From: Lysobacter sp. ISL-50
Lineage (GTDB): Bacteria; Pseudomonadota; Gammaproteobacteria; Xanthomonadales; Xanthomonadaceae
Length of the DNA stretch: 64,000 nucleotides
Assembly: GCF_018612875.1 (NCBI RefSeq)
Contig: NZ_JAGGRI010000029.1
Span: forward strand, 1 to 64,000
Reading direction: 5' to 3'
A model generated the notes under the pieces. The model did not search any database. It saw nothing but the letters and a program-made list of their open reading frames with translations, and was not told where the DNA came from. The translations under genes and the position numbers were made by a program. Positions 17,799 to 20,700 of this stretch are shown here, piece by piece. The number at the start of each line of letters is the position of its first letter. Position 1 is the stretch's first letter.

Positions 17799-20700
17799 AT
17801 GTCCGCTCCATTCGTTCATCTCCACTTGCACAGCGAGTACTCGCTGGCCGACTCGACGATCCGCATCGGCGATCTGGTCAAACGTTGCGTCGCGCTCGGC
17901 CAGCCGGCCGTCGCGCTGACCGACGTCGACAACATGTTCGCCGCTGTGAAGTTCTACAAAGCCTGCGAAGGCGCCGGCATCAAGCCGATCATCGGCGCCG
18001 ACGTGCATCTGGCCGACGGCAACGAAACCGCTTCGCGCCTGACCCTGCTGTGCCGCGATCGCGGCGGCTACCTGAGCCTGTCGCGCCTGCTCAGCCGCGC
18101 CTGGATGGAAGGCCACCGCACCGAAGGCGTGGTGCTGCGTCCGGAATGGCTGCGCGAGGACAACGAAGGCCTGTTCGCGCTGGCCGGCCGCCACAGCCTC
18201 GCCGGCCGCCTGGCCGCGAGCAACCGCGACGAACTCGCCCACGCCTGGCTGGTCGATTGGCAGGGCGTGTTCGGCGATCGCCTGCACCTGGAGCTGACCC
18301 GCTCGCAGCGCGACGGCGAGGAAGCCTTCAACGCCTTCGCCCTGCACGCCGCCAGCAAACGCGGCCTGCCGGTCATCGCCAGCAACGACGCGCGCTTCAT
18401 CGACGCGGAAGGCTATGAGGCGCACGAAGCGCGCGTGTGCATCGCCTCCGGCCGCGTGCTCGACGATCCCAAGCGCCCGCGCGACTACAGCGCCGAGCAG
18501 TTCCTCAAGTCCAGCGAGGAAATGCGCGAACTGTTCGCCGACGTGCCCGACGCGATCGACAACGCGCTGGCCCTGGCCAAACGCTGCAACGTCGAACTCA
18601 AACTCGGCGAATACGCGCTGCCGGATTTCCCGGTACCCGACGATCACACCATCGAGTCCTGGCTGCGCGCGCAATCGCGCGAAGGCCTGATCAAGCGCCT
18701 GGAGAAGAATCCGATCGCGCCGGGCAAGACCCGGCAGATTTACGACGAGCGCCTGGAAATCGAGCTGGACGTCATCATCAAGATGGGGTTCCCCGGTTAC
18801 TTCCTGATCGTCGCGGACTTCATCAACTGGGCCAAGGACCACGACATCCCGGTCGGTCCGGGCCGCGGTTCGGGCGCCGGTTCGCTGGTGGCCTGGGCGC
18901 TGGGCATCACCGATCTCGATCCGCTGCCCTACGACTTGCTGTTCGAGCGATTCCTCAATCCCGAACGCGTGTCGATGCCCGACTTCGACATCGACTTCTG
19001 CATGGACCGCCGCGACGAAGTCATCGACTACGTCGCGCGCAAGTACGGCCGCGACCGCGTCAGCCAGATCATCACCTACGGCACCATGGCGGCGAAGGCG
19101 GTGGTGCGCGACGCCGGTCGCGTGCTCGGCCATCCGTACGGCTTCGTCGATGGCATCGCCAAGCTGATTCCGAACACGCTCGGCATTTCGCTCGACGATG
19201 CGCTGGGCGAATCGGAAGCGGCGGCGAAGAACCAGGAACTGGCCTCGGCCGATCTGATCGCGCGCTATCGCAGCGAAGACGACGTGCGCGATCTGCTGGA
19301 CCTGGCGCGCGAACTCGAAGACCTGACCCGCAACGCCGGCAAGCACGCCGGCGGCGTGGTGATCGCGCCGAGCCCGCTGTCGGACTTCTGCCCGCTGTTC
19401 GCCGAACACGACGGCGAGGGCCGCGGCAAGAGCCCGGTCACCCAGTTCGACAAGGACGACGTGGAAGCCGTCGGCCTGGTCAAGTTCGACTTCCTCGGCC
19501 TGCGCACGCTCACGATCATCGATTGGGCGGTCAAGGCGATCAACAAGCGCTTGGCGAAGCAAGCCGCGGGACTCGGGACTCGGGACTCGGGACTCGAAAA
19601 GCCCGCTGTTGCCGTCGGCGAGTCCCGAGTCCCGAGTCCCGAGTCCCGCCCCACTCACCTCGACATCACCGCGCTGCCGCTCGACGACAAGGAAACCTAC
19701 GAGCTGTTCGCCCGCGGCGACACCGTCGCGGTGTTCCAGTTCGAATCGCGCGGCATGCGCGAGTTGCTCAAGCGCGCCAAGCCCGACACCTTCGAAGACA
19801 TCATCGCGCTGGCCGCCTTGTTCCGTCCCGGCCCGCTGGGCTCGGGGATGGACAAGGACTGGGTCGATCGCAAGCACGGCAACGCCGAAGTCACCTATCC
19901 GCACGACAGCCTGGAACCGGTGCTGGGGCCGACCTACGGCGTCATCGTCTACCAGGAACAGGTGATGCAGATCGCCCAGGTCCTGGCCGGCTACTCGCTC
20001 GGCGGCGCGGACATGCTGCGCCGCGCGATGGGCAAGAAGAAACCGGAGGAAATGGCGAAGGAGCGCGCCAAGTTCGAAGCCGGTTGCGCCGAGCGCAATA
20101 TTCCGGCCAAGCAGGCCAGCCCGATCTTCGACTTGATGGAGAAGTTCGCCGAGTACGGCTTCAACAAGTCGCACTCCGCCGCGTATGCGCTGGTCGCGTA
20201 CCAGACCGGCTGGCTGAAGCGTCACTACCCGGCCGAATTCATGTCCGCGACCTGTTCGTCGGACATGGACAACACCGAAAAGGTCGTGAACTTCCTCGAC
20301 GAAGCGCGGGTCATGGGCCTCACCGTCCTGCCGCCGCACGTCAACGAATCGGACTATATGTTCGAAGCGATCGACGCCACCACGATCCGCTACGGCATCG
20401 GCGCGGTGAAGGGCGTCGGCCGCGGCGTGTGCGAGGCGATCGTGGAAGCGCGCCGCGCCGGCCCGTTCTGCGACCTGCTGGATTTCTGCAAGCGCGTGGA
20501 CACCGGCAAGCTCAATCGCCGCGCGCTGGAAGCCTTGGCCCATGCCGGCGCGCTCGACGGCCTGGGCCGCAACCGCGCCAGCTTGATGCTGCAGCTGCCG
20601 GAAGTGCTCAAGGCCACCGACCAGTTGGCCAAGGAACGCGCCGCGGGTCAGGTCTCGCTGTTCGGCGGTTTCGAAGCCGCCACGCCGGCATTGCACCTGG

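Follow-up and report, generated by a model that had tools for sequence, protein, structure and literature searches.

A palindrome with heptamer arms lies in frame within the replicase gene dnaE of Lysobacter sp. ISL-50, and heptamer arms, mostly of other units, recur at the same linker in other members of the family

The GGGAATC/GGGNATC heptamer repeats of Xanthomonas and Nostoc, described in connection with G-quadruplexes, consist of seven-base G-rich units, with a preference for four units, and convergent pairs of them number 70 in Xcc and 75 in Xac (PMC4692102). According to the accessible part of that study, the search rule for Xanthomonas required at least one exact GGGAATC, most of the repeats lie between genes, although 11% of those in Xcc and 7% of those in Xac fall at least partly in open reading frames, and dnaE is named as a repeat-associated gene, the position not being stated (PMC4692102). 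In-frame palindromes have been described as Rickettsia palindromic elements (RPE), which occur in housekeeping genes at solvent-exposed places, RPE-4 being found in DnaE; the available excerpts report a debate on whether such sites represent a hotspot or a single old insertion (PMC3767692, PMC10969869). Similarly, GTAG/CGTC REPs occur inside replication and repair genes, one of them in the DnaE of R. conorii. The recB genes of X. campestris and X. oryzae carry REPs at about the same site, and intragenic REP dimers or groups encode 20 – 30 amino acids (PMC3733652, accessible part).

The window, i.e., the whole stretch of 64,000 nucleotides analysed here (G000:C23:1-64000), belongs to a 5.9-Mb draft genome in 72 contigs (G000) and contains the following features.

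17799..21404, + strand: dnaE, DNA polymerase III alpha subunit, 1201 amino acids (NF004226, PRK05673; 1455.9 bits, cut-off 1002)
19485..19502, + strand: FDFLGL block, codons 563 – 568 (F563 D564 F565 L566 G567 L568, invariant in 26 sequences)
19548..19565, + strand: altered left junction, RLAKQA in G000 and RRGKEG in G006
19566..19596, + strand: left arm, four GGGACTC heptamers (19568 – 19595), flanked by GC and G
19597..19618, + strand: loop, 22 nt, with AAAAGC at its start
19619..19649, + strand: right arm, the exact reverse complement of the left arm
19659..19709, + strand: downstream flank LDITALPLDDKETYELF, which differs along with the element (77% nucleotide identity to G006 over 48 nt)
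38307..38398, no strand assigned: second element of the same kind, with GGGAATC/GGGAATG units, intergenic according to a home-made gene caller

An earlier sequence-only reading of the window had described four GGGACTC heptamers followed, after a 22-base loop, by their 31-base inverse complement, in frame inside dnaE. This description was exact. A perfect inverted repeat of 84 bases occupies positions 19566 – 19649, its 31-bp arms being 100% complementary, and the reading frame of dnaE is open through the element, with no interruption across the 1201 amino acids. All eight heptamers are GGGACTC and exact GGGAATC is absent from the element; we therefore class it with the Xanthomonas heptamers in kind, but not as a member by the search rule applied there. 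Four GGG tracts are present. The six exact matches of GGGACTCGGGACTC in the 64-kb window all fall inside the arms of this element; with up to two mismatches there are eight matches, compared with a shuffle mean of 0.65, and none of 100 shuffles reached eight. In addition, a stable hairpin in the mRNA, as the same reading had anticipated, is predicted by RNA folding of positions 19540 – 19675 (-87.2 kcal/mol; shuffled sequences averaged -49.3, giving z -9.56, and none of 200 folded as well).

The element is located about 20 residues C-terminal of the FDFLGL block, the Asp of which we take to be the third palm catalytic Asp (D555 in E. coli numbering). The linker from FDFLGL to FQFES comprises 88 amino acids in G000, versus 60 or 61 in 97 of the 140 family linkers read as sequence, a set that is enriched for inserts because it consists of best matches, listed loci, and suspicious spans. 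The extra residues postulated at this point relative to E. coli are real. Placement by alignment with E. coli DnaE (5fku) and by Pfam borders puts the unaligned G000 residues between E. coli residues 579 and 583, and the insert between the NTPase domain, ending at residue 567 of the G000 protein, and the finger domain, starting at residue 617. The loop may lie at the surface. For other gammaproteobacteria or unplaced MAGs, represented by 54 DnaE loci (L086 – L140 without L090, taken from loci fetched by name), the spacing was 60 in 50 cases, 57 in two, and 63 in two.

Within the genus, an insert was present at the DnaE linker in two of the 20 genomes (G000 and G008). It was absent from the other 18, among them G006, the nearest relative of G000 (dnaE 97.3% identical outside the linker), and G004, G002, and G014, the nearest to G008 (96.6 – 97.1%). 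A clade of G000 and G008 was rejected on the flank tree (p-AU 1.4e-4). The insert of G000 is lineage-specific and looks recent. An insert shared by all relatives in non-palindromic form, or an assembly error, would speak against the sequence-only reading; most relatives turned out to lack the insert. As to an assembly artefact, G000 is a 72-contig draft, but 11 clusters of this genome have the GGGACTC spelling, and other assemblies, the single-contig G008 among them, show palindromes comparable to this one at the site. An artefact was rejected on the latter ground and is hardly credible.

The dnaE insert is probably one of the family's heptamer-arm palindromes (a short loop between two arms with about four GGGANTC-like units) in coding form, which recently replaced a short native loop in the G000 lineage. 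In DnaE, that native loop connects the fingers domain with the FDFLGL (palm) block; the arms may have reached the linker by new insertion, by import of a tract, or by rewriting in place. The earlier claim of an insertion stood as regards the longer linker in frame, but not as regards a clean event, since the native loop of G006 (KRRGKEGQGP) is not retained in G000 and about 50 nt downstream are changed too. Indeed, the 48 nt 3' of the insert are 77% identical between G000 and G006 and 71% between G008 and G004, whereas the neighbouring segments are 97.6 – 100% identical. In 14 insert-free control pairs, this flank was 79 – 100% identical, the four closest genus pairs reaching 96 – 100%. Low values came from the insert-free pairs G081/G184 (flank 79%, neighbours 94 – 97%) and G111/G182 (flank 81%). 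A tract this different is therefore exceptional between such close genomes, yet it can arise where there is no element. For the carrier pairs G355/G137 and G285/G137 flank divergence was not raised, G137 being a likely remnant, and for G158/G133 it was raised little; for G134 and G140 an indel spoiled the values upstream, and other carriers were too distant to judge. Furthermore, the flank peptide LDITALPLDDKETY is common to G000 and G008 and absent from the 18 other genus members, the flanks of G000 and G008 differing at 21% of 57 sites. Plain insertion fails to account for the changed flank of both genomes, which counts against the preferred explanation in its simplest form.

Alternatively, and possibly, an old allele was rewritten in place: an ancient palindrome would have passed between species by short-tract recombination, its arms being converted to the current unit spelling (dialect) of each genome by gene conversion with dispersed copies. 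The flank tract that differs along with the palindrome in G000 and G008, and the peptide shared by both, favour this tentative alternative. Against it stand the plain spacing of 60 – 61 amino acids in most linkers read and the insert-free pair G081/G184, which weakens the argument from the tract; a conversion tract itself was not directly observed.

The same linker is occupied in other members of the family. A match was obtained in 382 of the 395 genomes of the family sample and was lacking in 13; of the 382, 112 did not enter the linker survey, and G020, G023, G025, G029 – G033, and G035, visible solely as HSP gaps, were left out of the counts. The 261 genomes examined consisted of the 140 linkers read as sequence and 121 judged by alignment span (one of the latter, G091, is cut by a contig end). 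Heptamer arms were found at the DnaE linker in 20 of these 261 genomes, namely G000 and 19 more, mostly with other units; the carriers were picked by eye and include one-arm and decayed copies (G189, G096, G235, G407, G204, and G205). Genome G355 displays GGGAATC units in perfect 31-bp arms around a 22-nt loop. Other units are GGGATTC (G162, G134, and G140), GGGGACC (G008), mostly GGGATTG (G251 and G382), and GTGATTS (G285 and G158). In G395 (L317), in-frame tandem 90-bp half-elements result in a span of 260 residues where 60 – 61 are usual. A different palindrome (CCCTTCTCCC..GGGAGAAG) occupies the same linker in G097 (L231) and G123 (L313). Of 37 linkers longer than 63 amino acids, 15 carry neither heptamer arms nor a palindrome; the linker also lengthens without heptamers, a point against the preferred explanation. 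A non-repeat linker of 75 – 78 residues (e.g., KRLADAAAKGIDAGPAMNHTFKN) was seen at this place in L197, L202, L204, L205, L209, and L194. Linker DNA GTCGCGACAGGCAGGATGCCG is similar in G234 (L320) and L079, and perhaps represents another repeat family.

On a flank tree of 140 taxa, the 20 carriers need 14 changes, compared with a shuffled mean of 19.0 (0 of 200 shuffles as low), and a single clade of all carriers was rejected (p-AU 8.7e-6). This indicates several origins or transfers; as the carriers cluster more than expected by chance, some copies are inherited. Among the 19 readable dnaE cases, 12 have their first unit at codon position 2, a common register that allows fewer than 14 origins or else a fixed landing register. 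It is in line with an old allele and counts against the preferred explanation. The predicted fold of the 22 palindrome-class linkers (the 20 heptamer carriers, G097, and G123) ranged from z -10.5 to +1.5, and that of the 15 non-palindrome long linkers from -2.9 to +1.1. Five palindrome-class linkers fell between -2 and +2, four of them being one-arm copies, so that a weak fold alone does not mean decay. The linker of G137 contains a 22-bp perfect palindrome at the site, likely a collapsed remnant, and copies at the linker seem to decay. The sequence-only reading had proposed either recent mobility or tolerance of a loop. Both together give the best reading. The insert is not a one-off, as 19 further genomes have heptamer arms at this linker and two hrpA loops behave alike, nor is it a simple insertion in G000.

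Genome-wide, the repeats are mainly non-coding and their spelling is specific. Doublets of GGGACTC (GGGACTCGGGACTC) gave 43 matches in G000, 53 in G007, 14 in G005, three in G006, and zero to four in the remaining genus genomes, while doublets of GGGGACC (GGGGACCGGGGACC) gave 37 matches in G008 and none in the 19 other genus genomes. A 15-base GGGACTC pattern had 42 matches in G000 and a degenerate triple unit 313, many clusters other than the 11 with GGGACTC containing GGGAATC. Of 47 classified clusters of G000, 38 are intergenic, five lie inside genes, and four overlap gene ends, which bears out the expectation that repeats of this kind are normally intergenic. The five intragenic ones (dnaE, hrpA twice, near the end of a FAD oxidoreductase gene, and the last codons of carA) are all spelled GGGACTC; this proportion (5/11 vs 0/36 for other clusters; Fisher p 3e-4) is only a rough guide, as regions were picked from repeat matches and genes were called with a home-made caller based on codon usage. 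Similarly, six of the 17 GGGGACC clusters of G008 lie inside genes (dnaE, hrpA, carA, purL, metH, and rsmH). Three of these genes (dnaE, hrpA, and carA) have arms in G000 as well as in G008, for the most part in the dialect of the genome concerned, and the unit spelling at dnaE fits the genome's own dialect. At hrpA site B of G000 the arms are mixed, one with GGGAATC units and the other with GGGACTC.

This pattern bears on a local origin, in which replication slippage of heptamers and template switching at the fork would have built the palindrome with no moving element. One spelling in all eight heptamers, arms that are perfect mirrors, the tandem growth by 90 bp in G395, and the species-specific spelling agree with it. 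However, the same units at many loci of one genome are not explained by purely local slippage, and loops start alike across loci: among 28 paired elements of G000, AAAAGC falls within the first 16 loop nucleotides in nine, a looser purine-rich AGC motif occurs in 17, and GCTT lies near the loop end in ten. A local origin is therefore unlikely.

The hrpA gene provides a second view. At hrpA loop A, 11 of the 20 genus genomes have heptamer arms, six have the native loop, two are ambiguous (G002 and G004), and one is unmatched by the motif (G018). The frequency of arms at this site is compatible with an old allele. With loop borders set by hand, none of the 170 cross-locus pairs scores as high as the loops of G005 and G019, although the arms of these two differ; for G000 and G006, 50 of the 170 do as well, so that their loops are not closer than expected by chance. 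The signal in the first pair and its lack in the second make rewriting in place possible. It is conceivable, if rather doubtful, that the dispersed palindromes of a genome undergo concerted evolution as dialects, so that a change of dialect would alter both spelling and peptide in the linkers of DnaE, HrpA, CarA, and other proteins at once through gene conversion. If so, a mainly non-coding repeat family would be a common, shifting source of linker sequence for essential enzymes. Apart from this, the HrpA alignment breaks near residue 426 in G003, G001, and G016 (L339 – L341), a possible further insert site.

A mover for the heptamer elements was not found in G000, a point against the preferred explanation. 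This genome has one Y1 transposase gene (PF01797 match), with no heptamer doublet in its 3.3-kb locus, and RAYT was rejected as mover, as this sole match adjoins another palindrome family (GGGGCTGAAGCCCCTCCCACA). Further palindromes were noticed in the window. A second family, consisting of CCCCCCTGCCCCCCTTTTTCAAAGGGGGG and its mirror, is present in at least three copies (6144 – 6261, 17475 – 17560, and 62217 – 62369), and a third, with GGGGCTGAAGCCCCTCCCAC-like arms, at 22544 – 22631 and 34029 – 34110; a copy of the GGGGCTGAAGCCCCTCCCAC-like family lies near the one detected Y1 transposase (RAYT-like) gene of G000 (L328). Directly 3' of the dnaE stop codon (21409 – 21484), there is a palindrome with 37-nt arms, 86% complementary, and GGAGTGA-like heptamers.

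To return to the coding copy of a dispersed palindrome as the probable nature of the insert, the palindromes may spread within genomes as successive waves of dialects, copies in gene interiors persisting mainly in tolerant loops and later decaying or collapsing. Such copies would be tolerated because most units are free of stops in six frames and encode linkers rich in G, S, P, R, and D. Indeed, eight of the 11 units examined lack stop codons in all six frames and, as tandem 7-nt units present all three codon registers, arms made of those units are open in any register; the peptides encoded by the arms are rich in the residues mentioned. The GTGATTS units contain TGA, and the second unit in both G285 and G158 is GTCATTG, so that TCA takes the place of the TGA that GTGATTG would supply. 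This would fit selection on the frame, whereby the two genomes may share the unit by descent.

The encoded peptide appears to be a near-neutral linker rather than a regulator. A selected role, in which DnaE would be tuned by the linker peptide or by a hairpin or quadruplex of the mRNA, would account for the recurrence in dnaE and for the many intragenic REPs reported, in the accessible part of the source, in replication and repair genes (PMC3733652). It is very unlikely, given the 18 genus members lacking the element, the different spelling among species, and copies that are one-armed or weakly paired. Repeat DNA has entered this one linker of an essential enzyme repeatedly, and the cases can be counted. 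The age of each copy can be judged in part from its species-specific spelling, so that a series of genomes would allow measurement of how small palindromes spread, decay, and perhaps undergo gene conversion. These cases also reveal DnaE and HrpA loops that tolerate some 20 to 200 extra residues.

Compared with the known systems, the dnaE element shares with the Xanthomonas heptamers the tandem 7-nt GGGANTN units, at least two in number (here GGGACTC four times per arm), and the dispersed, mainly intergenic distribution, but differs in lacking an exact GGGAATC, in being a perfect palindrome, and in lying in frame inside dnaE. The main text of that study does not contain the term 'amino acid' and its accessible part gives no description of peptide-coding copies, recurrent coding sites, or genome-specific dialects (PMC4692102). 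With the RPE, the element has in common an in-frame palindrome in a conserved gene, including that of DNA polymerase III alpha, and the same debate between hotspot and single insertion; yet Rickettsia belongs to another bacterial class and the RPE, by their available description, to another sequence family (PMC3767692, PMC10969869). Like the GTAG/CGTC REPs, it is a palindromic repeat within a replication gene, a DnaE being among theirs, whereas REPs, as far as the source describes them, are short GTAG- or CGTC-tagged stems, the GTAG type being RAYT-linked, and not heptamer arms (PMC3733652). RAYT-linked REPs flank a Y1 tyrosine transposase gene, which the heptamers of G000 do not. Among the literature matches listed, none described this site in dnaE, its occupation in several lineages, or copies that match a dialect. 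In-frame coding palindromes (RPE and REPs) and the heptamer repeat kind are already known; what is new is that this kind of repeat codes in frame, that one replicase linker is used repeatedly, and that copies match the dialect of their genome.
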